Source of the DNA: Salinimicrobium tongyeongense
Lineage (GTDB): Bacteria; Bacteroidota; Bacteroidia; Flavobacteriales; Flavobacteriaceae
Assembly: GCF_026109735.1 (NCBI RefSeq)
Contig: NZ_CP069620.1
Span: forward strand, 2,480,001-2,544,000
Direction of reading: 5' to 3'
DNA: 64,000 nucleotides
Positions 15,663 through 57,709 of the stretch are shown one piece after another. Both the position numbers and the translations under genes were made by a program. Every line of letters begins with the position of its first letter. Position 1 is the first letter of the stretch. Below the pieces are notes generated by a model, which saw only the letters and a program-made list of their open reading frames with translations, ran no database searches and was not told the DNA's origin.

Positions 15663-16363
15663 GTTCTATTTATCAGGAATTAAAACAGGAATGTTACGAG
15701 GCCAATATGCAGCTCAATGCATTGAATCTCGTGATCTATACCTTCGGAAATGTGAGCGCGGTAGATCGCGAAAAAGGCGTTTTTGCGATTAAACCCAGCG
15801 GCGTGCCTTATGAAGATTTAAAACCTGAAGATATCGTGATCCTCGATTTTGATAACAATGTTGTGGAAGGGGAAATGAGACCATCTTCAGACACCAAAAC
15901 CCATGCTTTTCTGTATAAGAACTGGAAGGAAATAGGCGGAGTGGCACATACCCACGCGACCTATTCGGTTGCCTGGGCCCAGGCGCAGCGGGATGTTCCT
16001 ATTTTTGGAACCACACACGCCGACCATTTGACAACCGATATTCCCTGTGCACCCCCTATGCGAGATGATTTAATCGAAGGGAACTACGAACACAATACCG
16101 GGATACAGATACTGGACTGCTTTAAAGAGAAAGGTCTCTCTTATGAGGAAGTTCAAATGGTGCTTATAGGCAATCACGGGCCATTTACCTGGGGCAAAGA
16201 TGCCGCCAAAGCGGTGTACAACAGCAAGGTTTTGGAAGAGGTGTCAAAAATGGCATTTTTGACACTTCAGATAAATCCCGAAGCCCCCAGGCTAAAGGAT
16301 TCTCTTATTAAAAAACACTACGAACGTAAACATGGCAAAAATGCCTATTACGGTCAAAAATAA
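15659..16363 (+). CDS. araD: L-ribulose-5-phosphate 4-epimerase
   Basis: A 234-residue class II aldolase-fold epimerase that converts L-ribulose-5-phosphate to D-xylulose-5-phosphate. Zinc-ligand histidines are visible at His97 and His99 (VAHTHATYS) and His173 (GNHGPFTWG); GNVSAVDR and IKPSGVPY form the substrate pocket. The C-terminal HYERKHGKNAYYGQ is nearly that of the E. coli enzyme. The reading frame contains a perfect 25-nt palindrome (16241-16265) coding for VSKMAFLTL, in a place where the enterobacterial protein has a different sequence of the same length. It is translationally coupled to araB. Confidence 0.96.
   Translation: MSSIYQELKQECYEANMQLNALNLVIYTFGNVSAVDREKGVFAIKPSGVPYEDLKPEDIVILDFDNNVVEGEMRPSSDTKTHAFLYKNWKEIGGVAHTHATYSVAWAQAQRDVPIFGTTHADHLTTDIPCAPPMRDDLIEGNYEHNTGIQILDCFKEKGLSYEEVQMVLIGNHGPFTWGKDAAKAVYNSKVLEEVSKMAFLTLQINPEAPRLKDSLIKKHYERKHGKNAYYGQK
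16241..16265. repeat. Iterated palindrome (AAAAATGGCATTTTT core) inside araD
   Basis: A perfect odd palindrome with 12-nt arms around a central G (16253). The core is AAAAATG-G-CATTTTT and the flanks are GTGTC/GACAC. It is in frame and coding. It is one of six exact copies of the core in this window. Confidence 0.9.
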
Positions 16364-16375
16364 ATTAAACGAATC

Positions 16376-16408
16376 AGACCTAACAGGTTTTTAAAACCTG
16401 TTAGGTCT
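16376..16408 (+). terminator. Hairpin between araD and araA
   Basis: A perfect inverted repeat with 16-nt arms (AGACCTAACAGGTTTT and its complement) around one T, followed by TTTTAATAAT. It lies 13 nt after the araD stop and 31 nt before araA. It can end transcription or lower araA expression relative to araBD. The CCTAACAGG...CCTGTTAGG element resembles repeats seen widely in Flavobacteriia (recalled, not searched). Confidence 0.7.
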
Positions 16409-16438
16409 TTTAATAATATTTACCCTAATTCAGAATAG

Positions 16439-17947
16439 ATGATCAGTACAGAAGAAAAGGAAATTTGGTTTGTAACCGGGAGTCAGCACCTTTACGGGGA
16501 AGAAACTCTTAACCAGGTCGCAAAAAATTCCGCAGCCATAGTCGACGGGTTTAACGGATCGAATAAGATCCCGTTAAAAATAGTTCACAAAGAAACGGTG
16601 AAGACGCCCGATGAAATTACAAACCTCCTCCAGCTGGCAAACAGCGAGAAAAAATGTATTGGTATCATCACCTGGATGCATACTTTTTCACCGGCAAAAA
16701 TGTGGATCAATGGTTTGAGCTTATTAAAAAAACCAATTTGCCATCTACATACCCAATTCAACGCTGAAATTCCCTGGAACAAGATCGACATGGATTTCAT
16801 GAACCTGAACCAGTCAGCCCACGGAGACCGGGAATTTGGTTTTATGATGTCCAGAATGCGTAAAAAGAGAAAAGTAATTGTAGGACACTGGCAGGAAGAG
16901 CGCGTACAGCAAAAGATTGGCAACTGGTGCAGAGTGGTACTGGGTTGGGACGAACTGCAGAACCTTAAAGTGGCCCGAATTGGCGACAACATGCGGGAAG
17001 TGGCCGTTACTGAAGGAGATAAAGTGGCCGCCCAGATGAAGTTTGGAATGTCGGTTAATGGCTATGATTCTTCGGAAGTTGTGGCGCATATCAATAAAGT
17101 TTCAGAAGCTGAAGTAGAGAAGCTACTCGAAGAATATGAATCTTCGTATAAGCTTTCAGAAAAACTTCAGAAGAATGGCGAGAAAAGAGACTCACTGAAG
17201 GAAGCTGCAAAAATTGAACTTGGCCTTCGCGCTTTTCTTGAAGAAGGCGGATTTAAAGCCTTTACCGACACTTTTGAGAATCTTGGAGAGCTAAAACAAT
17301 TGCCGGGAATTGCCGTACAACGTTTAATGGCCGATGGGTATGGATTTGGTGCCGAAGGGGACTGGAAAACCGCTGCGCTTCTGCGAGCCATGAAAGTTAT
17401 GACCTATGGACTGGAAGGCGGAACTTCTTTTATGGAAGATTACACCTATCATTTTAGTCCGCAAAAATCTTATGTCTTGGGGTCGCACATGCTCGAGATC
17501 TGTCCTACCATAGCCGATGCCAAACCTTCCTGTGAAGTACATCCGCTGGGAATTGGAGGAAAAGAAGATCCGGTAAGGCTGGTATTCAACTCTCCTAAAG
17601 GTCCTGCTCTTAATGCATCTTTAATCGATTTGGGCAACAGGTTCAGATTAATAGTAAATGAGGTGGAGGCCGTAAAACCTGAAGCCGATCTGCCAAATTT
17701 ACCTGTCGCACGGGTACTTTGGGATCCAAAACCAGATCTGGATATTGCCGCAACCTCCTGGATACTTGCAGGGGGAGCTCATCATACCGTGTACACTCAG
17801 GCCCTGACAACCGAATTCCTTGAAGATTTTGCCGATATCGCCGGCATTGAATTACTGGTGATTGATGAAAAAACAAATGTTAGGGAATTCAAAGATAAGA
17901 TCAACGCCAACGAAGTCTATTACCACCTGTTCCAACACGGAATGTAG
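16439..17947 (+). CDS. araA: L-arabinose isomerase
   Basis: A 502-residue cytoplasmic isomerase converting L-arabinose to L-ribulose, the first step of the pathway. All four metal/catalytic positions known for E. coli AraA are present with almost identical numbering: Glu306 (GAEGDWK), Glu333 (SFMEDYTYH), His350 (GSHMLEICP) and His448/449 (AHHTVY). The N-terminal [13 protein letters not shown] is typical. Length equals the family norm (about 500). It is separated from araD by a strong hairpin and followed 19 nt later by the lipoprotein epimerase gene. Confidence 0.97.
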
Positions 17948-17966
17948 AACTAAAACCAACTCAATT

Positions 17967-19142: not shown

Positions 19143-19143
19143 T

Positions 19144-23457: not shown

Positions 23458-23565
23458 TTTATAAATGATTAATATTGAGCTATTTTAACGTTTTTTTCTG
23501 AAAAATCCTAAAGAGTAAAGAATTCCCTGTACTTCGGAGGGATTTTCACATTTAAAAGTAAGGTG

Positions 23566-23584
23566 TCAAAAATGCCATTTTTGA
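23566..23584. repeat. Iterated palindrome between GH9 and PAP2 genes
   Basis: A perfect 19-nt odd palindrome (core AAAAATG-C-CATTTTT, flanks TC/GA) lies just behind the GH9 stop codon. The rest of the 132-nt gap shows no clear promoter. Confidence 0.85.
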
Positions 23585-23589
23585 AAGCT

Positions 23590-26076
23590 CTATTTTTCGT
23601 TCAGCAATTTATCTGCAGCCAGGATCAGGAAGAGATAATCTGTGGTTCCACCGCCAAGAACGTACTCCGTTTGCTGCCACAGGAAAGGCCATTCGAGCAA
23701 TTCAGGAAAATCGGGGCGAATTAATGCTGTTCCCGAACCAATTCCGCCGGGAATGTGTGAAAAGTCCCCTCTATTTACGCCGTAGGCCTGGGTTAAAGAT
23801 CTCGATCCTACCCCAGAGGCAAAGGAAGAGGTATTTACGCCGGGATGAACCCCCAAAACAAAGTTCATGGCATTAAACATGTATTTTGCAGGAAAAATGT
23901 CGGGGTAGCTGGTGTGGAAGAAATACTGTTTTACCCCAAAATCCTGAATCCCCCAACCTGCACCCCAAATATCGGGCTCGTAGGGCATTCCGTAAGGCGT
24001 TTTTTTTTCCTGTTCCTGCACAGTCTGTAAATGGCCTTTTACAGCCGTGCGTATTTTTTGTGTAAAATCCCTGTTATTGATCAAAGGAAGGGCAGGGCCA
24101 ACAACCCATCCGGTTTGTGCAATGTTTTCAGCAATGAGGTTGGTGTTTGCCACGAGAAAATCTGAATATTTCTTCTCCTTTGTAGTTCTCAAAAGTTCCA
24201 CCGCCAGCATTACTTTTTGAAGCTCATTGTCTGGTTTGGTGATGTTCCAGATCTCTTCGGAAATATTCAAGCTCCGGCGGGCGAGGTCGGGGTTGTAATC
24301 TCTCATTACCCTCGCTGCAGCTGCAAGGCCTGCGGCAGCCTGCAGTTCCCTTCGCGGGTTGTCTTCGGTAAAGACCCAGCGGTCATCGGGGGCTCCTTCG
24401 AGGCCAATGGGAATACTTTCATCTTCAGGCTTATTGGAAAAAGGAACATTATCACTGTGGGTGACGGGATCACCAAGTAAAATGTACTGTCTATTGGTAG
24501 GCACAATAATGCCGCGGTAAAATCTTTCAAGAGATTCATAGCCCTTAACGATAGAAAGTAGCCCGTGTTCTATTTGCTGAAGAATATCTGGTTTGCCGTC
24601 GGGCTTCAGGATCTCCACAATTCTGGTTTCCTGGTCTATGCTGGTGTTGTCATAATCTTCCTGAAATATTTCATAAATATGAGACAGGCCTTGTACGGTA
24701 GCTGCCTGGGATTCAATCCTTAGATCATAATCCCCGGCATCATGCCAGCCACCCTGATTCAATCCGGGTACATGTGCTCCGGGTTGGTACTTGGTGAGGG
24801 TTTCGCCCCCCTGGATATACCCGTCAAAATGATTGTGATTTATGGGAGCCATGCGGGCATCATCGAGGTGGCATAGCCCATGCCATACCTTATAACGGTC
24901 GTTCACCCGCATGTGGCACATCTGTACCGGCAAAAAATATTCTAAGGTTGGTTGCCACACATCGCGTTTGTAGACATCAGGGCTTATCTGGAAAGGTTCA
25001 GTAGTGTAATCGCCATATTCGATGACGTACATTCCTGAATCTGTAATTTTTGTAAAATCCAGCTGGTAGTACCTGTACCTCAAAAAGTCACCCCATAGTT
25101 GAGGTTTTTGGGAGATGACTTCAGTAAACCCTCCATCAGGTTTTACCTTCAGAAGTTTAATGTCCTTTATATCAGTATCATTTTTATCGGTTTCCACAAC
25201 CGCGATCTTTTCCTGGGCAGGATGGTAACCCACCTGGGAAACCTGTACCACGGGATCATAAGTGAAATTTTCAATAACGTTGGGGGTCACCAGCCATTCA
25301 ATAGCCTTTTTGGTTGCCCCGGCAGGAACCAGGGAGCGCACAATAAACCAGCCGTTGCTGTGAATTGCGCGGCCATCGAGGAGTTCCAGCTCGTTGTCCT
25401 TGAGATTTCGAATGGTAAGGGTTTGTTTAGGATCTTCGGGGGCTACGGTAAGTTCTTTGCCCGTAGCCATGGGTTCAAGGCGGTATTCCCCATCTTCGGT
25501 ATAAAATCCGGGGCCGTTAGCCTGCCGGTTAAAGATGCCGAAATCATCTCCCATATAGTAAGATTTTCCGAAGAGGATGCCGGGAAAAAGTTCAAAGTTC
25601 ATACCTACTTTTCCAACCCATTCTTCGGGAAGTGGCTCATCTAGATCTACTACAATTCTGAAGGATTTGCCTTCGGGAAGTACTTTTAGAGTGTAAGACA
25701 TGTCAAGATCGGGATAGATAATGGGGTTAAATCCCCGCCTGTCTTTTGAAGGATCTGGATAGCTCATGCGAACGCTAATTTCCCTTTTTTGACGATCTAC
25801 CTGTCTTTCTCCCACCTTTGGAACAGGCTGCCACTGTCCCGGGGCAGGTTCTAACCGAAGATCGCCATTGGTGGCAACTCTAATTCCATTCTGGATGAGG
25901 CCAACGCCTCCCTGGTGGCTTTCGGGATAGAAATCGTGGGCCAGCATAACATTAGCCCCCCGTCTTTCGAGATATTCCTGGTCATTTATTTGAAAAACAT
26001 GAGTAGTGTCCTGGTTTTGTTGAGCAAATGCACTTAATACAAAAAGGAAAGGGAGAAATTGCAGATATATTTTCAT
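23590..26076 (-). CDS. GH9 family glycoside hydrolase (endoglucanase-like) with extra N-terminal domain
   Basis: An 828-residue secreted protein (signal about 1-18, SAFAQ). Residues about 25-285 form a beta-rich domain that I do not recognise. A cellulase N-terminal Ig-like domain follows (about 288-375, starting VSQVGYHP), then a GH9 (alpha/alpha)6 barrel. The catalytic Asp pair is Asp446/Asp449 in GGWHDAGDYD, and the general acid is Glu804 in QQTEYVLGG. GH9 members cut beta-1,4-glucans and, in Bacteroides ovatus, xyloglucan; exo-acting relatives exist too. It is the second gene of the minus-strand arm, between an FG-GAP lipoprotein and the PAP2-like gene, with palindromes at both ends. Confidence 0.9.
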   Translation of the reverse strand: MKIYLQFLPFLFVLSAFAQQNQDTTHVFQINDQEYLERRGANVMLAHDFYPESHQGGVGLIQNGIRVATNGDLRLEPAPGQWQPVPKVGERQVDRQKREISVRMSYPDPSKDRRGFNPIIYPDLDMSYTLKVLPEGKSFRIVVDLDEPLPEEWVGKVGMNFELFPGILFGKSYYMGDDFGIFNRQANGPGFYTEDGEYRLEPMATGKELTVAPEDPKQTLTIRNLKDNELELLDGRAIHSNGWFIVRSLVPAGATKKAIEWLVTPNVIENFTYDPVVQVSQVGYHPAQEKIAVVETDKNDTDIKDIKLLKVKPDGGFTEVISQKPQLWGDFLRYRYYQLDFTKITDSGMYVIEYGDYTTEPFQISPDVYKRDVWQPTLEYFLPVQMCHMRVNDRYKVWHGLCHLDDARMAPINHNHFDGYIQGGETLTKYQPGAHVPGLNQGGWHDAGDYDLRIESQAATVQGLSHIYEIFQEDYDNTSIDQETRIVEILKPDGKPDILQQIEHGLLSIVKGYESLERFYRGIIVPTNRQYILLGDPVTHSDNVPFSNKPEDESIPIGLEGAPDDRWVFTEDNPRRELQAAAGLAAAARVMRDYNPDLARRSLNISEEIWNITKPDNELQKVMLAVELLRTTKEKKYSDFLVANTNLIAENIAQTGWVVGPALPLINNRDFTQKIRTAVKGHLQTVQEQEKKTPYGMPYEPDIWGAGWGIQDFGVKQYFFHTSYPDIFPAKYMFNAMNFVLGVHPGVNTSSFASGVGSRSLTQAYGVNRGDFSHIPGGIGSGTALIRPDFPELLEWPFLWQQTEYVLGGGTTDYLFLILAADKLLNEK

Positions 26077-26159
26077 AATACTAAGAAAACAGTGAATAAT
26101 TAAATTTATACTTTTTAATTTTTTTCATTTAAATAATTTATGAAAAAGGGAAAATACCT

Positions 26160-26183
26160 CTCCAAAAATGGCATTTTTAGGAG
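26160..26183. repeat. Iterated palindrome between FG-GAP and GH9 genes
   Basis: The exact core AAAAATGGCATTTTT is at 26164-26178, extended to a CTCC/GGAG stem with one bulged A. It lies in the 124-nt gap behind the FG-GAP stop codon; the remainder of the gap is A/T-rich without a clear promoter. Confidence 0.8.
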
Positions 26184-26200
26184 GTGATATTTTTAGCTTT

Positions 26201-28402
26201 TTAAAGAGCGACTGGCTGTAGGTGCAGTACTTCTGCTTCAGGTTTAGCTTCTGTTATTTTATAGAAGGTGTTTAACTTCAGGTTTTTGAATACCTGCTGA
26301 GTGCCACTTCCTGCCCATTGTATTTTGACCTCTTTTACTTCCGAAGCCTTTCTTAGCCCTATTTGTGCCCTTAAAGTGGAAGCCCCAAAACTGCCTCCCG
26401 GGCTTACCGTATGAAAAATAGTGCGGGGAGAGCCATTTTCAATCACTGTGACTTCTATCCTGCTGCCAATAGCTGCCTTGTTTGCCTTAATTCCTTCCAG
26501 CTTAAGGCTAATCCAGTTGTTTTCATCCTGGTAGGGGTTGAGGTAAACCGAATTAAAAAAATTATCCCCTTCATAAGCCCCTCCCATCACAACATAAATA
26601 TCCTGGTCGCCATCATTGTCTATATCTGAAAATGAGACCGCATGTCCTTTCTGAACATGGCCCAACCCCCCGGCAGTAGTAACGTCCTGAAATTTTTCTC
26701 CGGCATCATTCCGAAAAACCCGGTTGGGAATAATGGATTCAAAACTCACTTCGCCAGTGCTTAGGTAGATGTCCGGGAACCCGTCATTATCCAGATCGCC
26801 GTAATTAGCTCCCATGGCATAACCTATTTTATTTAAGCCAACTTCAGAAGATACATCGGTAAAAGAACCTTTAATGTTTTGATAAAGCCGCATGGTTTCT
26901 GCCCTGTTGGGTTCTTTGAGGTAATCGCTTACTATATCGGGCACAATGTTGTAAAAGCTGCTTCTTCTGTACCCGGCCACAAATATGTCAACCCAGCCAT
27001 CGTTGTTGTAATCAAAAGACCAGGTGGGAAAAGAGGAAATCTTTTCCTGCAACCCCCGGTTTAGCCCGTCTTCCCTGAAGGAGATCTTTCCGTTTTTATC
27101 CTTTCCCTGGTTGATAAACAACAAATTTCTTGTGGAGTGAAGGGTAGAGACATATATATCCATCCAGCCGTCATTGTTATAATCTGCACTGGTTACCCCT
27201 TTTACAAAGAACGGTTCCTCTTCATTGCTAATTGACAGGCCGGCACTGCTGGTGAGGTTTGTAAATGTGCCATCGCCGTTGTTCTTAAAAAATTCTGAAG
27301 GGTGCACATTTCCTTTTTCAGATTCATTTCCTATAAACAGGTCTATCCACCCGTCATTATCAAAATCGGCCCAGGTAGCGGTTTGGGTAGGATGAAAAGA
27401 AAGCAGCCCCGCCTCCAGGGTAACATCGGTAAAGGTGTTGTCGCCGTTGTTTCTTAGCAGGGAATTAGGGTGTTTTCCCAGGCTTTCCATCCATGCCCCA
27501 CGCAAAATAAATACGTCAATAAATCCGTCGTTGTTATAATCGGCCTGGATCATGTTTAAACCTCCTTTCACTTCCTCAAGCCCTGCAGTTGAAGTTTTTT
27601 CAATAAAACCGCCCTGCCCGTCGTTGATGAAATAATTGAGTTTTCCTGATGGGAACCAGCTGGAAACAAGCACATCGAGCAAGTTGTCATTATTAAAATC
27701 ATCTACTATACTGCCGCCAGAAAGGTCATTAACATTCAGGCCCAGTTTTGGAGCTATATCTTCAAATTTTTTTAAAGGGTATTCAGATTCAAAAGCACTT
27801 TCAGGAATTAAATATTTTTCAGGCACGCTGTCGGGATATTTACCAAGGGTCATGTAGGCAATGTTTAGCAGCCACCGGCTGGTGTAGTCTCTTGAATTGT
27901 AATTTAATAAGTTTTCGTAGAGAGCAATTGCTTTTCGGGAGCCTTCGGGAGCCTGGTGGTAGCCTTCAGGGTCTATGGGGATAATGCACGATGCAGAAGC
28001 ATTGTGGTGATGTATGCAGTTTTGTTGTTCTCCCAGGCGCATATAGGCCAGGGCAAGTAATGGCCCAATTTTTTCTTCTTCGTTTAAATCAAGCTGATAT
28101 CTTAAAGCATTTTTATTGCTCTTAGCCCATAATCTCTCGAGAATCTCAATAGCTTCTTTTGTTCTTCCGGCATAGAGCAGGGCATCTGCTTTTCTCAGGT
28201 TGTATTTTTCTTTTTGATTTTTTGGAGCTGCTTTGGAGAGACTGTCAAAATAGGCAATTCTAATGGAAGAAGCATAGATGTTTTCGGGAATGTAAAATTG
28301 TTCTTCAGCAGATTTGTTAATGATTTCGGGCATGCTCTGCTTATCGCTACACGAGAAAAGACATAAAAAATAGAAGAAAAAAAGGCCTTTTAAATATTTC
28401 AT
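26201..28402 (-). CDS. FG-GAP/VCBS repeat lipoprotein with TPR-like N-terminus and ASPIC/UnbV C-terminus
   Basis: A 733-residue protein. A lipoprotein signal (CLFSCSDK, Cys near 18) is followed by an alpha-helical TPR-like region (about 40-210). Seven FG-GAP/VCBS blades come next, each with a calcium-loop DxNxDGxxD pattern, for example DYNNDGFIDVF, DFDNDGWIDLF and DLDNDGFPDIY. The UnbV/ASPIC module closes the protein (VKIQWAGSGTQQ). FG-GAP blades build beta-propellers that bind proteins or glycans at the surface; no enzymatic residues are evident. It is the first gene of the minus arm and faces a second FG-GAP/UnbV gene across a 342-nt divergent promoter region. Its role is unknown; surface glycan binding or assembly with SusCD is a guess. 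Confidence 0.88.
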   Translation of the reverse strand: MKYLKGLFFFYFLCLFSCSDKQSMPEIINKSAEEQFYIPENIYASSIRIAYFDSLSKAAPKNQKEKYNLRKADALLYAGRTKEAIEILERLWAKSNKNALRYQLDLNEEEKIGPLLALAYMRLGEQQNCIHHHNASASCIIPIDPEGYHQAPEGSRKAIALYENLLNYNSRDYTSRWLLNIAYMTLGKYPDSVPEKYLIPESAFESEYPLKKFEDIAPKLGLNVNDLSGGSIVDDFNNDNLLDVLVSSWFPSGKLNYFINDGQGGFIEKTSTAGLEEVKGGLNMIQADYNNDGFIDVFILRGAWMESLGKHPNSLLRNNGDNTFTDVTLEAGLLSFHPTQTATWADFDNDGWIDLFIGNESEKGNVHPSEFFKNNGDGTFTNLTSSAGLSISNEEEPFFVKGVTSADYNNDGWMDIYVSTLHSTRNLLFINQGKDKNGKISFREDGLNRGLQEKISSFPTWSFDYNNDGWVDIFVAGYRRSSFYNIVPDIVSDYLKEPNRAETMRLYQNIKGSFTDVSSEVGLNKIGYAMGANYGDLDNDGFPDIYLSTGEVSFESIIPNRVFRNDAGEKFQDVTTAGGLGHVQKGHAVSFSDIDNDGDQDIYVVMGGAYEGDNFFNSVYLNPYQDENNWISLKLEGIKANKAAIGSRIEVTVIENGSPRTIFHTVSPGGSFGASTLRAQIGLRKASEVKEVKIQWAGSGTQQVFKNLKLNTFYKITEAKPEAEVLHLQPVAL

Positions 28403-28744: not shown

Positions 28745-31700
28745 ATGAAGTTTTTTCTTAGACTATCTGTAGTTGCTGCTTTGCTTGTTCTTAGCAGTTG
28801 TAAAAAAGAGGAAGAGGTTGCAACTTCTGAATCTTCTGAAACTAAAATTTTCCGCAGTGTTTCTTCGGAAGAGTCGGCTATTAATTTCAGTAATAATTTA
28901 ACTGAAAGTGATTCCCTCAATTATTTTAGCTATTCCTACATCTATATGGGCGGGGGCGTGGCCGTTGGGGATATCAATAATGACGGATTGCAGGATCTTT
29001 ACTTTACAGGAAACCAGGTTCCAAATAAGTTGTATTTGAATAAAGGTGAGCTTGAATTTGAAGATATCACTAAAGCTGCCGGCGTGGCAGGAGATAGCAG
29101 GTGGTATACTGGGGTTACCATGGCCGATGTGAACGGCGATGGATATTTGGATATTTACCTTTCTGTAGGGGGGAAGTTTGAGCCCAAAAATAATCAGCTC
29201 TTTATTAATAATGGTGACGGTACCTTTGAGGAGAAGGCCCGGGAGTATGGCCTTGATGATCCAGGGAATAGTGTTCAAACTACCTTTTTTGATTATGACA
29301 GGGATGGGGATCTTGATGCCTACATTGCTAATTATCCGCCAACCAGGTTTGATTCTCCAAATTTCATCTATGAATATAAAATGAAAAACGTAAGTGATCT
29401 CGAATCAGACCACTTACTGCGCAACGATGGAGGTGAATTTACAGATGTTACAGACGAAGCAGGAGTGCGAAGTTTTGGTCTTACCCTCTCTGCAACAGTG
29501 GCCGACCTCAATAACGATGGCTGGCCAGATATGTATGTTTCTAACGATTTTAGCTCTCCCGACTTTTTGTACATGAACAACGGAGACGGCACCTTCAGGG
29601 AAGTTGTTAAAAATGCCACTTCACACACCTCTTTTTTTGGAATGGGGGTAGATATAGCCGATTTTAATAATGACGGGAACCTGGATATCTATCAGGTAGA
29701 TATGTCGGCAAAAGATAACAGGAGAAAAAAGGCCAATATGGCGAGTATGAACCCAGATTTGTTCTGGAGCACCGTTGAGGCCGGTTTTCATTATCAATAC
29801 ATGCAAAACGTATTGCAAACCAATACCGGAGTTTTTGAAGACGAAAACCCATTTTTTGCCGACCTGTCGCGTATCACAGGATCTTCTTCTACAGACTGGA
29901 GCTGGGGGCCTCTGTTTGCCGATTTTGACAATGATGGGCACAAAGACCTTTTTGTTAGTAACGGAACACGAAGGGAGATCAATAACAACGATTATTTTAA
30001 CAGCCTCAAAGACACCAGGGTCGTAGAAGATCAACTTGAAAAAAGCCTGAGTATTCCTTCAGAAAAAATTGATAATTTCATGTTTCAGAACCATGGGGAT
30101 TTGTCTTTTGAAATAGCCAACAAAAAATGGGGAATTGAATATGAAGGATGGTCTAACGGAGTAATATATGCCGATTTGGACAATGATGGAGATTTAGAGA
30201 TAGTGACCAACAACATTGATGATAAGGCTTCTCTTTTTGAAAATACCAGTGCAGGGCAAAATAATTATGTGCAAATAGAATTTGAAGGCAATGAGAAAAA
30301 TGTTTTTGGGCTTGGAACTCGGGCTTATGTGAAAGCGAACGGGATGGAGCAAATGCAGGAGCTCACCCTCACCCGTGGTTTCCAGTCTTCGGTTGCGCCT
30401 ATGTTACACTTTGGGCTGGCAAAAACCGATATAGCAGATGAAATCAGGATAGTATGGCCAGATGGTAAAGCTGAAATCCTGGAAGATGTTAAAGCCAATC
30501 AGCGGTTGAAAATGCAATATGCCAATGCTACCGAATTATCTGCGGAAACTCCTAAGAAAAATCTCCTTTTTACAACCCTTAGAGATACAACTTCTTTCCC
30601 GGAGCATCGACATATTGAAAATGATTTTGACGATTTTAAAAATGAAGTGCTGTTGCCTCATCGTACTTCCACCTTTGGACCGGGTGCAGCGGTGGGTGAT
30701 TTAAATGGAGATGGAAGAGATGATATTTTCATTGGTGCTGCTTCTGGTTACGAAGCAGGGCTTTATTTTCAAAAGGGTTCAGGTTTTGAAAAAATAAATA
30801 GTACAGCTTTTCAGCAAGACAAAATGCATGAAGATCTAGGTGCCCTTATCTTTGATGCTAATGATGACGGTTATAATGACATTTATGTGGTAAGCGGTGG
30901 GAACGAATTTAAACCCGATTCTGAATATTTGCAGGACCGGCTATATATAAATGATGGTAAGGGCAGTTTTAAAAGGGATGAATCTGCACTGCCTGAAATG
31001 CTCACCAGTGGCTCCAGGGTCTATCAGGCCGATTTTGATAAGGATGGGAAAAAGGACCTTTTAGTGCTGGGGCGCCTGGTGCCGGGAAATTATCCTTTAC
31101 CTGCCACATCTTATATCCTCAAAAATGTTGGGGAAAACGGAAAAGCTAAGTTTCGTGACATCACAAAAAATATAGCCCCCGAATTACAATCTCTTGGTAT
31201 GGCTACCAGCGCAGAAATTGTAGATATAGATAATGATGGTTGGGAAGATATAGTAGTAGTGGGAGAATGGATGCCCATTAAGGTCTTCAAAAATTCAGAA
31301 AAAGGCTTTACTGATATTTCTGAAGAGCTTGGGCTGGCCGACACTACTGGCTGGTGGTGGAGTGTAAAATCTGCTGATTTTGACAATGACGGGGATCAGG
31401 ATTTTGTGGTGGGTAACCTTGGTAAGAACTACAAATACAAAGCGAATAAAGAAGAAACTTTTGATATTTACTTCAAGGATTTTGACGCAAACAATAAGCA
31501 GGATATTGTTTTGAGTTACTATAATGATGGTACTAAGTTTCCATTAAGAGGCCGGGAATGTTCTTCCCAGCAAATTCCCGGCATTAAAAATAAATTTCCA
31601 GATTACCAGTCTTTTTCAACAGCGACTTTAGAAGATGTTTATACCCGGGAGGAACTGGAAAATTCCCTGCACTACCAGGTTAAATCTTTTGCCAGTATTT

Positions 31701-32053
31701 ACCTCGAAAACAGGGACGGGGAATTTGTTGTTCATAAGCTACCTTCCGGAGCCCAAATTTCATCCATAAATCAAATTCTTATTGATGATTACAATAAAGA
31801 TGGGCACCTGGATGCTTTGGTGGCGGGCAACCTTTTTTGGTCTGAAGTTGAAACCACCCGGAATGACGCAGGCTACGGATTGTTTTTAAAAGGAGATGGT
31901 AAGGGTGGTTTTAAAGAAGCCACTGCTACAGAGAGCGGTTTGTTTATACCAGGTGATGTGAAGGATATGTTGAGGATGAAAGTGGGGGGCAGCAATGTAA
32001 TTGTAGCTGTTAAAAATGATGATGTTTTACAATTTATTACAGTAAATAATTAA
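28745..32053 (+). CDS. Large FG-GAP/VCBS repeat lipoprotein with ASPIC/UnbV module
   Basis: An 1102-residue lipoprotein (VLSSCKKEEE, Cys20). It holds about fourteen FG-GAP calcium-loop blades in two blocks separated by an UnbV/ASPIC-like module (RIVWPDGKAEILEDV, about 575-590). Examples are DINNDGLQDLY, DVNGDGYLDIY, DFDNDGHKDLF, DLNGDGRDDIF and DIDNDGWEDIV. Two beta-propellers on a membrane-anchored stalk are therefore likely. No catalytic motif is seen. It stands directly upstream of susC/susD and has a shorter relative on the opposite arm. The pairing of such proteins with SusCD is common in Flavobacteriia, but no function is known to me. Confidence 0.88.
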   Translation: MKFFLRLSVVAALLVLSSCKKEEEVATSESSETKIFRSVSSEESAINFSNNLTESDSLNYFSYSYIYMGGGVAVGDINNDGLQDLYFTGNQVPNKLYLNKGELEFEDITKAAGVAGDSRWYTGVTMADVNGDGYLDIYLSVGGKFEPKNNQLFINNGDGTFEEKAREYGLDDPGNSVQTTFFDYDRDGDLDAYIANYPPTRFDSPNFIYEYKMKNVSDLESDHLLRNDGGEFTDVTDEAGVRSFGLTLSATVADLNNDGWPDMYVSNDFSSPDFLYMNNGDGTFREVVKNATSHTSFFGMGVDIADFNNDGNLDIYQVDMSAKDNRRKKANMASMNPDLFWSTVEAGFHYQYMQNVLQTNTGVFEDENPFFADLSRITGSSSTDWSWGPLFADFDNDGHKDLFVSNGTRREINNNDYFNSLKDTRVVEDQLEKSLSIPSEKIDNFMFQNHGDLSFEIANKKWGIEYEGWSNGVIYADLDNDGDLEIVTNNIDDKASLFENTSAGQNNYVQIEFEGNEKNVFGLGTRAYVKANGMEQMQELTLTRGFQSSVAPMLHFGLAKTDIADEIRIVWPDGKAEILEDVKANQRLKMQYANATELSAETPKKNLLFTTLRDTTSFPEHRHIENDFDDFKNEVLLPHRTSTFGPGAAVGDLNGDGRDDIFIGAASGYEAGLYFQKGSGFEKINSTAFQQDKMHEDLGALIFDANDDGYNDIYVVSGGNEFKPDSEYLQDRLYINDGKGSFKRDESALPEMLTSGSRVYQADFDKDGKKDLLVLGRLVPGNYPLPATSYILKNVGENGKAKFRDITKNIAPELQSLGMATSAEIVDIDNDGWEDIVVVGEWMPIKVFKNSEKGFTDISEELGLADTTGWWWSVKSADFDNDGDQDFVVGNLGKNYKYKANKEETFDIYFKDFDANNKQDIVLSYYNDGTKFPLRGRECSSQQIPGIKNKFPDYQSFSTATLEDVYTREELENSLHYQVKSFASIYLENRDGEFVVHKLPSGAQISSINQILIDDYNKDGHLDALVAGNLFWSEVETTRNDAGYGLFLKGDGKGGFKEATATESGLFIPGDVKDMLRMKVGGSNVIVAVKNDDVLQFITVNN

Positions 32054-39082: not shown

Positions 39083-39129
39083 AAAAAACAACCTTCAAAA
39101 ATGGCATTTTTGAAGGTTGTTTTTTTTTT
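39083..39129. terminator. Bidirectional terminator built on the iterated palindrome
   Basis: A perfect 43-nt inverted repeat (39083-39125, 21-nt arms) around G39104. The apex is the core AAAAATGGCATTTTT, and the stem adds CAACCTTC/GAAGGTTG. A-run and T-run ends serve both convergent genes (YyaL ending 39024, SMP-30 ending 39142). Confidence 0.88.
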
Positions 39130-40091: not shown

Positions 40092-41472
40092 CTATTCAAT
40101 TTCTTCAGTAAAACTGGAGGCCGGTAAACCTGCTTCATTGAAAATGTTTGAAGTGCCGGTGTTGCGCCATGAATAACGTACTTCTACGGGTTCTTCAATA
40201 CCTTTCACCTCCAGTTCTATAAAATCCTTTTTTATGCTGAAATCTACCTGCTGAAAAATGCCATTTTTGCCGGCTACTTCAAACTGGGAAGCCGGGTTTT
40301 CTCTGTCCAGGCTTAATTTTTCAGCATTACTGAATTTAAGCTGAAGTTTATTTTTATGCTTGGTAATTCCTGAAATAAGCGGTGCATGGGCAGCAGTTTC
40401 CCTTCCGTAGACATCATTGAGGGCAAGCTTGGCAAAACGCAGCCCCACATCTTCTTTGTTGCGGGGGTGTATATCTTTAATGTTTCCAATGTCGCTGGTC
40501 ATCACCATTCCCGTTTTGGGCATTTTAAGGACCCTGCGCTGGGCATCTCTCACTTTTACTCCCGCGAAATTGTCTCCATATTCGTAAGGCGCGATTTGCG
40601 CGTAGAAAAAAGGAAGTTCAGAATGCCATTTTTGACGCCAGGAATTGATTAGCGCCAAAAAGATCTGCTCGTAATGATCGGCGTTATCGGTGTTTGACTC
40701 CCCCTGATACCATAAAACCCCGGCAAGTTCAAAAGGGCACCAGGGGGGCGATCATGGCATTGTAGAGCAGGCCGGGGTCACGTGGCCCCCATTCTGTAGG
40801 AGACAGCATCCTGGCTGCTTTGGTGAGTTGTTCATCGTTTTCAATAACTTCAGAAGGCATCCATACTTCTGCCGGAGTACCGCCCCAGCTGGAGTTGATG
40901 AGCCCTACCGGCACACCAACTTCTTTATTGATCTTTTTTCCGAAGAAATAGGCTACCGCACTAAAGTTTTTCATGGTTTCGGGGGTGCTGGCCTCCCAGC
41001 TGCCGTCGAGGTCCTGTTGCGGGCAGGTGGCAGTTCTATTCAAGGCCGTGAAGAAACGAATCTGGTCATTACCTGCATTTGCAATAGCAGCTTCGGCATT
41101 GTCTATTCCGGCAGCTGCAGTCCATTCCATGTTAGACTGGCCGCTCACCAGCCAAACCTCCCCTAAAAGCACATTTTTGAGCACCAGGCTGTTATAGCCC
41201 GTGATGGTCACTTCCTGCGGTCCTCTAATGTCGGGTGTGGGAAGGAGTATTTCCCAGTTTCCATTCTTTCCCACCCTGGTTTGTAGCGTATCATTGCCCC
41301 AGCTGGTCGAAATTTTGACCACTTCGCCCGGTTTGGCCCAACCCCATATTTTCACTTCAGCATTGCGCTGTAGCACCATATTATCTGAAAATATTGAAGG
41401 CAAAGAAACGTTCGAGAATGCATCAACTGGGATCATTGAAAAAACAGCTATAAAGAAGACCAAGCTTCGCAT
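40092..41472 (-). pseudogene. Sialate O-acetylesterase family protein, frameshifted
   Basis: Two minus-strand frames form one SASA/CE20-like esterase. The 5' part (41472-40729) has a signal peptide, a beta-sandwich, SGQSNMEW (Ser113) and SSWGGTPAEVWMPS, and stops after MIAPLVPF. The 3' part (to 40092) holds LINSWRQKW and the DIGNIKDIHP block with the catalytic His. Removing one base from the A4 run at 40731-40734 (T4 on the coding strand) joins them through PFELAGVLWYQGESNTDNAD, a sequence conserved in the family. The repaired product would be about 459 residues. This is either a recent one-base insertion in a homopolymer or a sequencing error. It starts 1 nt behind the aldo/keto reductase stop. 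The 3' part carries one exact copy of the iterated palindrome. Confidence 0.88.
40254..40268. repeat. Iterated palindrome inside the esterase gene
   Basis: The exact core AAAAATG-C-CATTTTT is read on the minus strand as GKNGIFQ. Flanks beyond the core are not complementary here. A partial copy (AATGCCATTTTTG) lies at 40622-40634 in the same gene. Confidence 0.8.
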
Positions 41473-45559: not shown

Positions 45560-46738
45560 TTAGGTGCATGATTTTAATAAATTGAGACCTTCAAGGGCTG
45601 TTTTCTGCGGCATTTGAAAATTTGGCAGGAACAGGAGAGAAGATCCCTCGGTATTTATCAGCAGGCCTTTCTCCAGGGCCTTTTGTTTGATGTTTGAAGC
45701 ATAATCTTCATCATAAACCTCTACGCCAATGGCGGCACCTTTAATTCGCACCTCCGGCTCTTTTCTGAAATTTACTTCTGAAATGCCATTTTTGAAGGTC
45801 TCTGCGAGTTGTTCTATGTTCTCGAATAGTCTTTTTTGGTTCTTCTCAAGGTAATGTAGCGCGGCCAGAGAAGCATCTACAGCTACCGGGTGCCATCCGT
45901 AAGACGAATATAATCCAATTTTTCCACTTAACTGCCGGTCAATTTCTGAAGTGGTGATTACTGCGCCCATCCCTGCGTGGCCTGCAGTAATGGCTTTAGC
46001 CATGCCCAAGATGTCGGGTTCAATATCGAAGTGTTCTGAAGCAAACATTTTTCCGGTTCTTCCAAAGCCCGTGATGGCTTCATCCATGATCAATAAAGTA
46101 CCTGTGTCTTTACAGATTTTGTTTAGCCCTGCCATAAATTCTTTTTCGGGAACCACAACGCCAAGGTTGATGATGACAGGTTCCATAATAACTGCGGCAA
46201 ATTCTTTGGTTGAAAGCAGTTTTTTTACCCGCTCGAGTTTTTCAGAATTTAATGGAAGCTCCAGTTTTTCAAAGCCTTCTAAAAGTTTGGGAAAGCCTTT
46301 TTTCTTTTTTGTAGCTCCAATACTCAAGGCGCCCATGGTATTCCCGTGGTAGCTGCCTTCAATAGATAAAATCTTTTCTCTGCCGGTGTACATGGTGGCC
46401 ATTTCCAAAGCGGCGTCTACAGCTTCCGATCCTCCCGTCATCCTGTAGCTTTTCTGAAGTTTTCCCGGGGCCAGTTTGGCTAAAACTTCGGCCAGTTCGC
46501 TCCAGCCCCTGTAGTAAAAGTTTGGATAAACATACGCCGGACGGTCTTTCTTCCTGATTGCTTCTTCAATTTCTTCAACGCCCCAGCCAAGATTGCCCAC
46601 TCCGGCGCCTCCCAGAAAATCGATATATTTTTTTCCGTTGGCAGCATAGATGTAGCTGCCTTTTGCCCTTGTAACTTCAAGGTCTAACGCCTGATTTCCA
46701 CGTCCAAAATACTTATCGTCTTTCTCTTTGTTGTCCAT
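45560..46738 (-). CDS. Class III (PLP-dependent) aminotransferase
   Basis: A 392-residue fold-type I aminotransferase of the ornithine/4-aminobutyrate/acetylornithine group. Visible signatures are MTGGSEAVDAALEMA, IEGSYHGNTMGALSIG, the cofactor-binding Asp in LLIMDEAITGFGRTG and the Schiff-base lysine Lys248 in GMAKAITAG. Substrate specificity cannot be read from sequence; ArgD is unlikely because no arginine genes are near. A partial copy of the iterated palindrome (45781-45793) encodes FKNGIS near residue 320. The 209-nt upstream gap is shared with a divergent DUF4136 lipoprotein gene. Confidence 0.88.
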   Translation of the reverse strand: MDNKEKDDKYFGRGNQALDLEVTRAKGSYIYAANGKKYIDFLGGAGVGNLGWGVEEIEEAIRKKDRPAYVYPNFYYRGWSELAEVLAKLAPGKLQKSYRMTGGSEAVDAALEMATMYTGREKILSIEGSYHGNTMGALSIGATKKKKGFPKLLEGFEKLELPLNSEKLERVKKLLSTKEFAAVIMEPVIINLGVVVPEKEFMAGLNKICKDTGTLLIMDEAITGFGRTGKMFASEHFDIEPDILGMAKAITAGHAGMGAVITTSEIDRQLSGKIGLYSSYGWHPVAVDASLAALHYLEKNQKRLFENIEQLAETFKNGISEVNFRKEPEVRIKGAAIGVEVYDEDYASNIKQKALEKGLLINTEGSSLLFLPNFQMPQKTALEGLNLLKSCT

Positions 46739-46947: not shown

Positions 46948-47538
46948 ATGAAAAAACTAAATCTAATTGTAATGTTGTTAATTGTCGGGCTTATCCTTGG
47001 ATGTGGGCCCAGAGTGGCAACACAAAAAACCACTTCAAAAGATCTTGGTAATTATGACTCTTTTGCGTACCTGCCCAATTCAAATGTCAATGCCCAAAAC
47101 CTGCCAATGGATTCTGAAGATGTGAGCCGGGCAGTGATCGAGGCAGTAAATATGAACATGAGGGAAGTCGGCTATAACCTCGACCGCCAAAATCCCGATT
47201 TGCTGGTACTCATTAGTACCGAAACCGATACAGAACTGGAAACTACCACAGACGCTGTTTATGCTACTTACCCTTATACTGCAGGGGTGAGCACAATAAA
47301 CCCGCTTTACAATAATTACTACTACGGCGGATATGCCGGGTACAACAATATTATTGGTTATGATACCGATACTTATGCCTATGAAGAAGGTACCGTGGTG
47401 ATTAATCTCGTTGACCGCGAAAGCCGAAATACCGTTTGGAAAGGCGTGGCATCAGAGAGCCTTAGCAACCAGAGTAATATTCAGGAAATAAGGGGTCTCG
47501 TAAATGCCATTTTTGAGGAGTATCCGCTGAACAATTGA
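46948..47538 (+). CDS. DUF4136 family lipoprotein
   Basis: A 196-residue lipoprotein (LILGCGPRV, Cys19) of the DUF4136 type. It has the usual KDLGNYDSFAYLPN start, an alpha/beta core with VSRAVIEAVNMNMREVGYNLDRQNPDLLVLIST, a Tyr/Asn-rich loop (about residues 110-150) and a conserved end IVINLVDRESRNTVWKGVASES. The family is common in Bacteroidota envelopes and has no known function. It is a single gene, closed by a bidirectional terminator. Confidence 0.85.
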   Translation: MKKLNLIVMLLIVGLILGCGPRVATQKTTSKDLGNYDSFAYLPNSNVNAQNLPMDSEDVSRAVIEAVNMNMREVGYNLDRQNPDLLVLISTETDTELETTTDAVYATYPYTAGVSTINPLYNNYYYGGYAGYNNIIGYDTDTYAYEEGTVVINLVDRESRNTVWKGVASESLSNQSNIQEIRGLVNAIFEEYPLNN

Positions 47539-53406: not shown

Positions 53407-53431
53407 AAATAAAAATATTAATGAGGTGGAA

Positions 53432-54646
53432 TTACTTTTTCTCGAGTAATGCCATATAAAAACCGTCAAACCCGGTTTCGCTCGATAAGATCTTCTGATC
53501 TTTGGCAAGGCTGAAATCTTTTCCTTCTTCGGAAGCCAAGAATTTCTTCACCTGCGCTTCATTTTCTGAAGGTAAAACAGAACAGGTAGCGTATACCATT
53601 TTTCCGCCGTTTTTTACCATTTTTGAATACTGCTTCAGGATCTCTTGCTGGGTTTGTTTGATGGTCTCAATAAATTCTGGCTGCAGCTTCCATTTTGCAT
53701 CGGGGTTTCGGCTTAACACCCCCAGGCCGCTACAGGGTGCGTCAATAAGAACGCGATCTGCACTTCCGTAGAGTTTTTTCACCACCTTGTTAGAATCAAT
53801 CACCCGTGGCTCAATGTTGTGAGCCCCTGCCCGGCGGGCTCGGCGTTTCAATTCTTTCAGTTTATTTCCGTAAATATCTGTAGCGATCAACTGGCCTTTA
53901 TTTTCCATTAAGGCTGCGAGGTGCAAAGACTTTCCGCCGGCTCCGGCACAGGTGTCAACCACGCGCATTCCAGGTTCTACACCCAGGAACCGGGCAACCA
54001 ATTGAGAGGAAGCATCCTGCACCTCAAAAAAGCCATTTTTGAATGCTTCTGTCCTAAACACATTCTTTCTTTCCTTGAGTTGCAGGGCATCGGGATAACT
54101 ATCCAAAAATTCGGTTTCAATTTCCTCTTTTTGAAGCTCCTGTCTTAATTTTTCCCTGGTGGTTTTGAGCGTATTCACCCTAAGTATCACGGGAGCCTGC
54201 TGGTTAAGAGCGTGAATTTCCTTTTCCCAGGTTTCTTCACCCAGCTCCTGCACACCCATTTCATCGAGCCAGTCGGGCACAGATTCCCTGAACTTTCTAA
54301 TTTTACTTAATTCGTCGAATTTTCCTTTGATTCGGCGGGTGGGAACAGGTTCAATCTGCTTCCAGTCAGTCGGAATTTCGATTCCTCTTAGAGTCGCCCA
54401 AACTGCAAATAGCCTGAAAAGATTTTCCCTGGAATATGGAGCTTTAACTTCGGCTATTTCAGAATAAAGGCGCTTCCAGCGAACAATATCGTATGTGGTT
54501 TCAGCAATAAAGCTTCGGTCCCGGGCACCCCAACGTTTATCGCGTTTCAGTGTTTTTTCGATCACCTTATCGGCATAAGCTCCTTCATTAAATATTTCAC
54601 TAAGGGCATCAACGGTAGCAAAGACCAAATTTCTGTATAAGCGCAT
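53432..54646 (-). CDS. RsmB/NOL1-NOP2-Sun family rRNA (cytosine-5)-methyltransferase
   Basis: About 404 residues from ATG 54646. An upstream ATG (54655) would lie only about 3 nt after the predicted transcription start, so the shorter form is preferred. An N-terminal NusB-like helical region (about 1-130) is followed by a SAM-dependent methyltransferase domain: DTCAGAGGKSLHLAAL, DAPCSGLGVLSRNPD (Cys305) and YATCSVLPSENE (Cys355, catalytic). GFFEVQDASSQLVA precedes the SAM site, as in RsmB. It methylates cytosine in 16S rRNA, or possibly another RNA. A degenerate copy of the iterated palindrome (54026-54040) encodes FKNGFF at a conserved site. Confidence 0.9.
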   Translation of the reverse strand: MRLYRNLVFATVDALSEIFNEGAYADKVIEKTLKRDKRWGARDRSFIAETTYDIVRWKRLYSEIAEVKAPYSRENLFRLFAVWATLRGIEIPTDWKQIEPVPTRRIKGKFDELSKIRKFRESVPDWLDEMGVQELGEETWEKEIHALNQQAPVILRVNTLKTTREKLRQELQKEEIETEFLDSYPDALQLKERKNVFRTEAFKNGFFEVQDASSQLVARFLGVEPGMRVVDTCAGAGGKSLHLAALMENKGQLIATDIYGNKLKELKRRARRAGAHNIEPRVIDSNKVVKKLYGSADRVLIDAPCSGLGVLSRNPDAKWKLQPEFIETIKQTQQEILKQYSKMVKNGGKMVYATCSVLPSENEAQVKKFLASEEGKDFSLAKDQKILSSETGFDGFYMALLEKK

Positions 54647-54664
54647 AAATTTCATTTAAAGGCA

Positions 54665-54704: not shown

Positions 54705-54720
54705 CCTTCAAATTCAGGTT

Positions 54721-55782: not shown

Positions 55783-55788
55783 AAACAA

Positions 55789-55822
55789 ATGATCCGGCAC
55801 CTTTCGGCAACCGGACCATTTT
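55789..55822. terminator. Weak hairpin between convergent genes
   Basis: ATGATCCGG and CCGGACCAT (one G-T pair) with a 13-nt loop and TTTT on the plus side, just after the BNR gene stop. Confidence 0.45.
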
Positions 55823-55846
55823 CAACTAACCAACCAAAAAATCCAA

Positions 55847-56281: not shown

Positions 56282-56282
56282 G

Positions 56283-56792: not shown

Positions 56793-56824
56793 TTAATTAT
56801 TTGACTGAAAATTCATCCAAAGGT

Positions 56825-57370
56825 TTAAGTCTGTTTCAAAAAATCTTCAATTTTTTTGGTCGCATGGTGATAAGAAGCCTTCAAAGCGCCTTCGGAAGTA
56901 CCTAAGATGTCAGAAATTTCTTTATACTTCAACTCCTGGAAGTACTTCATGTTAAAAACCTGTTGTTGTTTCTCCGGAAGTGTGGCAATGGCTTTCTGAA
57001 GTTTCAGCTGAATTTCATCACCTTCAAAAAATACGTCATTTTGCAGGTTGTCAATAATTTGTTGCTGAAGTTCTTCCGAACTTATTTGTTGCTTTTTGGC
57101 CCTGTTGTTCAAATACGTGATGGCCTCATTGGTCGCAATACGGTACATCCAGGAGAACAACTGGCTTTCCCCTTTAAATTTATCAATATTCCTGAAGATC
57201 TTAATAAAGGTGTTTTGCAGCACATCATCGGCATCTTCGTGGTTCTTCACAATATTGCGGCACTGCCAGTACAAACGCTCCTGGTAAAGTTCCAGTAATT
57301 CCCGAAAAGCCGCATTCCGGGATTCCGGATCCTGGAGGCGGGAGACTAATTTTTCTTCGGAAGCATTCAA
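56825..57370 (-). CDS. ECF-type RNA polymerase sigma factor
   Basis: A 181-residue sigma-70-like protein with only regions 2 and 4. Region 2 contains QNTFIKIFRNIDKFKGESQLFSWMYRIATNEAITYLNNRAKK, including the -10 recognition helix. Region 4 contains LPEKQQQVFNMKYFQELKYKEISDILGTSEGALKASYHHATKKIEDF. It directs transcription of an unknown regulon, controlled by the downstream anti-sigma-like protein. It resembles the stand-alone Bacteroidota ECF groups rather than FecI-type sigma factors tied to SusC. The 353 nt upstream contain tandem repeats and a candidate small RNA. Confidence 0.92.
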   Translation of the reverse strand: MNASEEKLVSRLQDPESRNAAFRELLELYQERLYWQCRNIVKNHEDADDVLQNTFIKIFRNIDKFKGESQLFSWMYRIATNEAITYLNNRAKKQQISSEELQQQIIDNLQNDVFFEGDEIQLKLQKAIATLPEKQQQVFNMKYFQELKYKEISDILGTSEGALKASYHHATKKIEDFLKQT

Positions 57371-57459
57371 AATGGGAGCGTAATTTTAAGCCGATAAAGA
57401 TAGCAGGAAATCCTTAAAAAACACGAATTGCTGAAGGGATAAGGATTACCTCAAACATC

Positions 57460-57499
57460 GATGAAATACACAAAATATAGGATAAAATACACAAAATAT
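57460..57499. repeat. 19-nt tandem direct repeat (operator-like)
   Basis: GATRAAATACACAAAATAT occurs at 57460-57478 and 57481-57499, with one difference (G/A at position 4). The start-to-start distance is 21 bp, about two helical turns, so both copies face the same side of the DNA. It lies 90 nt before the sigma gene start and 30 nt before the candidate small-RNA promoter. Confidence 0.8.
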
Positions 57500-57533
57500 T
57501 TTTTTATATCAATTTTTGTAGTATCTTCACAAA

Positions 57534-57642
57534 GTGAAAAAGTAAATCTTTTTTGCCCCCGATTTTAAGAACCGTTTCACCACAACTCCCCCAAGTGGTG
57601 CGGAATTTGAAAAATGGATGACCTACTCATCCATTTTTTTTT
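57534..57642 (+). ncRNA. Candidate small RNA with C-rich motifs
   Basis: A -7-like box TATCTTCA (57522-57529) is followed by about 108 nt without a plausible reading frame and ended by a strong intrinsic terminator. The predicted RNA has an unpaired GCCCCCG (57555-57561). A hairpin follows, CACCAC-AACTCCCCCAA-GTGGTG (57578-57600), extended by CCG/CGG past a TTT bulge; the terminator stem completes it. Two CCCCC stretches, one single-stranded and one in a loop, look like target-binding seeds. It lies antisense to the flanking genes but overlaps neither. No known family was recognised; 5' end is estimated. Confidence 0.5.
57610..57642 (+). terminator. Intrinsic terminator of the candidate small RNA
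   Basis: Perfect 12-nt arms AAAAATGGATGA/TCATCCATTTTT with loop CCTAC, and nine T residues in a row on the plus strand. No plus-strand gene precedes it for more than 1.5 kb, which is why a short plus-strand RNA is proposed. Confidence 0.85.
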
Positions 57643-57660
57643 GTTTAAAATAGATCCTAC

Positions 57661-57709
57661 AAAAAGAGAGGGGTTCCAAAAATGGCATTTTTGGAACCCC
57701 TCTCTTTTT
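57661..57709 (-). terminator. Terminator of the ABC transporter operon, built on the iterated palindrome
   Basis: A perfect 49-nt odd palindrome (24-nt arms around G57685). The core is AAAAATGGCATTTTT and the stem adds GAGAGGGGTTCC/GGAACCCCTCTC, with A5/T5 ends. It lies 15 nt beyond the stop of the ABC gene. Confidence 0.87.

Follow-up and report, generated by a model that had tools for sequence, protein, structure and literature searches.

An iterated dyad-symmetric palindrome in Salinimicrobium tongyeongense: a putative uptake-signal-like sequence

Which process fills a bacterial chromosome, in genes and gaps alike, with copies of one palindrome? The question is raised by a stretch of 64,000 nucleotides from Salinimicrobium tongyeongense (Flavobacteriaceae; contig NZ_CP069620.1, positions 2,480,001 to 2,544,000), here called the window, in which the 15-base palindrome AAAAATGSCATTTTT recurs. 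The host genome (G000), which encloses the window, is a single contig of 3,509,958 bp (3.51 Mb). An initial annotation of the window described a palindrome that is iterated far beyond chance and spread over both genes and gaps, and named the genome-wide count, set against chance expectation, as the check on it. The description proved right and understated: the genome holds 163 copies of the 15-mer and none of the reversed control pattern. The reading favored here, with a rough probability of 0.46, is that the palindrome is a putative uptake-signal-like sequence, which would have accumulated through natural transformation.

The core, written AAAAATGNCATTTTT, occurs 43 times in 584 kb of G000, whereas order-5 Markov sequences of equal length contain a mean of 0.0 (4 runs). 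When up to 3 mismatches are allowed, the window has 24 matches compared with 9.9 +/- 3.4 in shuffled sequence, and none of 100 shuffles reaches 24. A weight matrix derived from 54 exact-core copies finds 87 places scoring at least 20 in 464 kb (mean of 0.3 across six order-5 Markov sequences) and 107 places in 564 kb; the matrix was trained partly on the scanned stretches, and the exact copies are thus not independent hits. By extrapolation from the 564 kb, we infer about 660 sites at a score of at least 20 genome-wide. The G000 sample contains 104 palindromes whose 7-bp arms are separated by one base; this core accounts for 42 of them, and the runner-up for 6.

All six exact 15-mers placed in the window by the initial annotation are found at their positions, and its five degenerate copies all exist, displaced by 0-3 bp. 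The copies are listed below in window coordinates of the ~41-bp unit, with the start of the 15-mer or core in brackets and the matrix score where noted; no strand is assigned to a unit, and G151 is the genome compared with G000.

16233..16273 (15-mer 16246-16260): exact copy within an aldolase-II-type gene (15659-16363, + strand), in its 3' part; score 41.4; 1 of 61 bp changed in the G151 ortholog
23555..23595 (23568-23582): exact copy just past the stop of a GH9-like gene (23590-26076, - strand); score 43.5; fold z -0.23
26151..26191 (26164-26178): exact copy just past the stop of an FG-GAP/ASPIC-like gene (26201-28402, - strand); bulged hairpin, z -2.7
39084..39124 (39097-39111): exact copy between convergent open reading frames (ORFs); terminator-like, with a perfect hairpin and a T-run after it; -21.5 kcal/mol, z -5.3
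40241..40281 (40254-40268): exact copy in a 188-aa ORF (40092-40658, - strand) with no Pfam match; missing at the ungapped G151 ortholog
57665..57705 (57678-57692): exact copy just past the stop of an ABC-transporter gene (57724-59547, - strand); perfect long hairpin, terminator-like; - strand fold -35.3 kcal/mol, z -8.2
60625..60665 (60638): degenerate copy in a phosphoglucomutase/phosphomannomutase gene (59558-61288, - strand); score 29.3; kept in G151
47487..47527 (47500): degenerate copy at the end of an ORF (46948-47538, + strand); score 28.9; kept in G151, with related letters in G155, G152, G157, and G150
54013..54053 (54026): degenerate copy in an RsmB/F-like methyltransferase gene (53432-54655, - strand); score 25.5
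58436..58476 (58449): degenerate copy in the ABC-transporter gene (57724-59547, - strand); score 21.6; kept in G151
45766..45806 (45779): degenerate copy in an aminotransferase-III gene (45560-46738, - strand); score 20.7; below threshold in G151, gapless
40606..40646 (40619): degenerate copy; score 18.7; below threshold in G151, gapless
15125..15165 (15138): degenerate copy in an ORF (13977-15662, + strand); score 19.9; kept in G151
29596..29636 (29609): weak copy in an ORF (28745-32053, + strand); score 19.8; kept in G151

The place of the 54026 copy scores at least 15 in the regions of 9 of 11 genomes, and coding constraint is the likely reason for its conservation.

Where the copies lie was assessed with gene calls that are simple ORF picks. 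The 87 sites fall in ORFs 47 times (79.5 expected), in convergent gaps 12 times (1.1), in tandem gaps 25 times (4.6), and in divergent gaps 3 times (1.5). With a second ORF set, 46 of the 107 sites are in long ORFs (~600 bp or more), 50 are intergenic, and 11 are in short ORFs. Intergenic copies lie closer to 3' ends than to gene starts and are densest just past stop codons. Genic and intergenic copies share a like consensus. The centers of genic copies use all three codon phases (17/17/12), and a protein-level repeat is therefore rejected. Density also varies with base composition. Sites per 5 kb number 0.14 below 40% GC (7 bins), 0.40 at 40-42% (10), 0.95 at 42-44% (44), 1.26 at 44-46% (43), and 0.92 above (12), such that low-GC segments are poorer in copies although the core is AT-rich (Spearman 0.24, p=0.009, 116 bins). 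Five stretches (window positions 1-15000, L062, L063, L092, and L068) have no site at score 20 and are mostly of low GC and strong GC skew; such site-free stretches are perhaps imported islands. L068, which lies close to the inferred terminus, is site-free even at a GC of 0.444.

The repeated unit is a dyad-symmetric duplex of ~40 bp, roughly AAAAnRSSYBYC-AAAAATGNCATTTTT-GRVASSYnWTT. In the 54 exact-core copies, which were picked by core alone, the flanks are non-random to ~12 bp on either side. The core is preceded by an A tract, a pair of G/C positions, pyrimidines, and a C, and followed by a near mirror image, placing AT tracts on both sides. The central base, previously taken to be G or C, is free (G 17, C 15, A 9, T 1; n=42). 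A tight two-part motif with TTCCGNAG was rejected because the spacing is not fixed.

The initial annotation also held that the flanks are self-complementary at five of the six exact copies and that selection or copying acts on a hairpin. Long arms are indeed present at 16246, 39097, and 57678, and a bulged arm at 26164, but 23568 has 2 bp and 40254 none. When eight window sites were folded, 57678, 39097, 16246 (z -5.0), and 26164 stood out, whereas the folds of 23568, 40254, 54026, and 60638 were unremarkable. Across the genome sample, arm complementarity in the 46 copies within long ORFs is 3.70 of 10 pairs, compared with 3.79 when arms are swapped between copies (p=0.69). The 50 intergenic copies are slightly better, at 4.44 versus 3.99 pairs (p=0.013), and 6 of them have perfect 10-bp arms. 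These sites were chosen by a matrix that contains the flanks, which favors consensus flanks equally in both classes. Hairpin selection as a general rule is rejected because genic copies show no arm covariation; the core letters themselves are what is conserved. A subset of copies thus resembles terminators, but the common object is a duplex site.

The same data bear on whether the copies form a family of intrinsic terminators in which the hairpin cap is conserved. The 3'-end bias would fit, as would the hairpins at 39097 and 57678 and the varying arms around a constant core at some such sites. The 57678 hairpin is also matched, on the + strand, by a simple terminator scan, which does not list that at 39097. 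A terminator family is nevertheless unlikely to explain the repeat, given the 46 of 107 copies inside ORFs of ~600 bp or more without arm covariation and the few intergenic copies with perfect arms. Moreover, a terminator does not need fixed cap letters, yet the cap letters are the conserved part, and motif-free terminator-like hairpins occur nearby.

Comparison of G000 with G151 (~137 kb aligned, 86% identical) shows how the copies change. The compared stretches contain 39 G000 sites scoring at least 18, of which 12 were unalignable and left out. Of the remaining 27, 24 are kept in G151 at a score of at least 15 (18 gapless, 6 gapped outside the core) and 3 are lost, none with a gap. In the reverse direction, 29 G151 sites include 23 that are alignable, and all 23 are kept in G000. 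Change at these sites is thus by substitution rather than insertion, as expected of an uptake signal sequence (USS), and the USS literature argues likewise (PMC1626085). Among 19 copies chosen from G000 with no more than one mismatch, 9 of 266 core positions (3.4%) and 122 of 665 distant-flank positions (18%) differ between the two genomes (p=7e-11); 5 of the 9 core mismatches fall in the single lost site 40254. For 16 copies chosen from G151, the figures are 1/224 and 93/560. The central base is changed in 4 of the 19 and 3 of the 16 copies, respectively. This disparity argues that the core letters are kept by some process; at some terminator-like sites the arms change while the core stays.

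The palindrome is restricted to one genus. In a draw of 149 family genomes that represent 148 genera and include the host genome, each of the 148 others (one a congener) has 0-2 copies of the 15-mer. A longer, 27-base form that includes one set of flanks turned up in four contig stretches, all from Salinimicrobium, in a collection that may omit records near the host genome. Twelve Salinimicrobium genomes have 163 (own), 2, 4, 32, 193, 48, 27, 56, 51, 0, 61, and 46 copies. Nine of these are motif-rich (27-193), including G157 with 61, and the low exact counts belong to G007 (2), G149 (4), and G156 (0). G149 is 99% complete, and G156 is an incomplete bin (74%). In 160 kb each, G149 yields no site at a score threshold of 18; G007 yields 5 at that threshold and 3 at 20. 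When 11 genomes (G156 left out) were placed on an unrooted tree built from a single region, G149 grouped with the motif-rich G154 at a support of 0.93, and G007 branched off separately. These separate placements would make the low counts of G149 and G007 separate events, most simply losses. A different dialect in either genome was considered and rejected, as no other dominant palindrome appears in their samples. In 40-100 kb samples from ten other genera, no other lineage-specific palindrome stood out; sparse ones would escape such samples.

Three local features were seen in congener samples. In G152, four near-identical copies lie in one gap (L071, ~9580-9990 in reversed region coordinates), the last three 143 bp apart, a cluster that is probably a local duplication of a motif-bearing segment. 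The palindrome CCCGAG-NN-CTCGGG occurs 7 times in 60 kb of the G150 sample (L073, L081, L082) and is outside the top five listed for other samples. In the G149 sample (L076, L134-L141), GGGTGACTTGCG and its overlaps occur 8 times versus 0.01 expected, probably as a local repeat.

Two known kinds of iterated palindrome had been proposed as models. Repetitive extragenic palindromes (REPs) and bacterial interspersed mosaic elements are, like this motif, iterated palindromes of bacterial chromosomes, and REPs are spread by REP-associated tyrosine (Y1) transposases (RAYTs). Y1 transposase matches are present in 9 of the 12 genus members, and two of the three genomes without a match, G149 and G156, are motif-poor. 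However, none of the three sites lost between G000 and G151 (27 of 39 alignable) carries an insertion gap, and many copies lie within genes and not only in gaps. RAYT matches also track copy number poorly, as G157 has no match and 61 copies, and G007 has four matches and 2 copies. Spread as a REP-like element, or as a similar miniature inverted-repeat transposable element, is therefore hardly credible. HIP1, the other model, is an 8-bp GC-rich sequence of cyanobacteria that co-occurs with matching methyltransferases (PMC4390886). The likeness to HIP1 stands as far as a lineage-specific, highly iterated palindrome in genes and gaps goes. It fails in size, in the free center, and in the flanks: the Salinimicrobium site has a 15-bp core with flanks informative to ~40 bp, is degenerate and phased in AT and GC tracts, and is concentrated past stop codons at 3' ends. 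A HIP1-like palindrome made or kept by methylation and repair is thus very unlikely.

The genus-wide counts can be set against genes for natural transformation. In Riemerella anatipestifer, ComEC, DprA, a DUF5689/DUF5017 protein, an outer-membrane protein from the adjoining gene, and a helix-hairpin-helix (HHH) protein are among eight genes reported as essential for transformation (PMC8459023). Ten of the 12 Salinimicrobium genomes have an intact comEC. In G149, the gene is reduced to a ~0.95 kb relic in several frames (G149:C11, about 32600-33600; L142), and G156 has only a weak match below the cut-off. DprA was found in 11 of 12, with a frame of 281 aa in G149 compared with 339-393 aa elsewhere and none in G156. 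The DUF5689 protein was found in 10 of 12, with no match in G149 or G156. In G000, it also has a weak DUF5017 match, and the preceding ORF ends directly upstream and has no Pfam match in the part examined. The HHH protein, which was paired with its Riemerella counterpart by domain and length, is 292-308 aa in 10 of 12 genomes, broken in G149, and without a ~297-aa frame in G156. The G149 lineage seems, from these relics, to have given up transformation. Both genomes with these genes lost, broken, or not found have 0-4 copies of the motif, and one of the ten with intact genes (G007) has 2 copies (Fisher p=0.045, Mann-Whitney p=0.03 over 12 genomes, shared ancestry ignored). An unusual change of the DUF5689 protein in G007 was sought; its identity to the others, 65-69%, is about like that of G154 (65-71%). 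The ORF preceding DUF5689 is somewhat more diverged in G007 (59-65% versus 64-67%), and the comparison is uninformative.

According to the favored reading, a ~40-bp dyad-symmetric double-stranded DNA site would be read by what is likely a dimeric DNA-binding protein. DNA bearing the motif would be preferentially taken up by natural transformation and recombined into the chromosome, and copies would accumulate by point substitution at many places. These copies would lie within genes and, at their highest density, immediately after stop codons, and some there would double as intrinsic terminators. Uptake would be the driving process, and the surface reader may belong to the Bacteroidota transformation apparatus, with the DUF5689 protein or the preceding ORF as candidates. 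This reading draws on the ungapped change, the core with AT tracts, the presence in genes, the 3'-end bias, and the terminator-like subset. The scarcity in low-GC segments (perhaps imports) and the near absence from G149 and G156 also support it.

Known uptake sequences offer partial parallels. The USSs of Pasteurellaceae and the DNA uptake sequences (DUSs) of Neisseriaceae likewise have many copies in genes and gaps, lineage-restricted over-representation, a core with AT-rich flanking tracts, substitution-type change, and some terminator-like copies. Pasteurellacean USSs are reported to have AT-rich repeats in their flanks (PMC1626085), and some of the ~1300 uptake sequences of Haemophilus influenzae lie in terminators (PMC5217627). 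Unlike these, the Salinimicrobium motif is dyad-symmetric in core and flanks, has fewer exact copies (163 in 3.5 Mb), belongs to another phylum, and is known here from sequence; a genome with intact genes, G007, is also nearly motif-free.

Several observations weigh against uptake. The uptake sequences of H. influenzae and Neisseria gonorrhoeae are not palindromes (PMC1939737). The link to transformation genes rests on one or two losses, and the correspondence between Salinimicrobium and Riemerella genes rests on domains, length, and gene order. G156, the incomplete bin, also has no copies of a second iterated motif, CTTCCGHAGAAA, described below. The nine motif-rich genomes differ 7-fold in copy number. 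A G149 region outside the random sample contains one site (score 20.2); most congeners share this site in the gene concerned. G007 has only 2 exact copies, yet its comEC, DprA, DUF5689, and HHH frames are all intact; uptake alone leaves this unaccounted for, and the preference may have changed or weakened in this genome, or something else may underlie the motif. The literature yielded no uptake experiment on Salinimicrobium. In titles and abstract openings, subscription papers and preprints excluded, nothing pointed to this motif or to an established uptake sequence in Bacteroidota.

The main rival is a chromosome-associated dimeric protein of nucleoid, segregation, or nucleoid-occlusion type, whose binding sites would be kept for chromosome organization with no role in uptake. 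Noc, SlmA, and MatP are dimers that read palindromic sites in genes and gaps. Dyad symmetry with alternating AT and GC tracts suits a DNA-bending dimer, and strong conservation in genes and gaps would be expected. Loss of the protein would simply explain G007. Placement along the chromosome gives a mixed answer. Site counts range from 0 to 8 over 20 evenly spaced stretches of 20 kb. The two stretches closest to the terminus, as inferred from GC skew, contain 0 and 1 sites, which slightly weakens the uptake reading, and exact copies are scarcer in the first 1 Mb (30/163, p=0.004). However, the outer neighbors of those two stretches contain 8 and 6, and some stretches distant from the terminus are empty too. 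An origin- or terminus-type site is less likely for lack of a clear pattern in these samples, in which the motif differs from the sites of Noc, SlmA, and MatP. Nor would such a protein predict the 3'-end bias or the low count of G149 beside its transformation-gene losses. A binding or replication site is possible, and the chromosomal protein is a serious candidate that we hold somewhat doubtful.

The second iterated motif, CTTCCGHAGAAA, has 233 genome copies compared with 2 of its reversed control and lies within genes on either strand. Eleven of the 12 Salinimicrobium genomes carry it (G156 does not), and it reaches at least 20 copies in 20 of the 147 other family genera drawn, for example 170, 157, 121, and 114 copies in G039, G063, G012, and G100 (reversed controls 0-11). 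In the window, the form TTCCGHAGAA occurs as follows.

15556, 40938, 41919, 51258, 59192: + strand, TTCCGHAGAA
17068, 28861, 43137, 43243, 48634, 48730, 50683, 52197, 53525, 57353: - strand, TTCCGHAGAA

Between G000 and G151, TTCCGHAGAA is intact in 20 of 29 copies, compared with 28% for shuffled words of equal composition. CTTCCGHAGAAA was considered as the uptake sequence instead and judged less likely; it does not track transformation genes, since G149 retains 77 copies, about the density of the intact G157 and G158.

The known readers of uptake sequences in other phyla are pilins. If the uptake reading is true, Bacteroidota would have a palindromic uptake sequence, and its symmetry would suggest a dimeric reader unlike those pilins. 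It is quite possible, and put forward here tentatively, that such a sequence would be read by the DUF5689/outer-membrane apparatus rather than a pilin and that species losing transformation lose the motif. Self-preferring uptake is on record for one species of the family, Riemerella columbina, whose own DNA competes better than foreign DNA. That study established no specific motif; its k-mer table gives A/T-rich words only, whose role as uptake sequences is left open (PMC7965970). Given a strongly conserved candidate motif, simple fragments would suffice to test the question, and the range of 0-193 copies within one genus provides a natural series for motif gain and loss.

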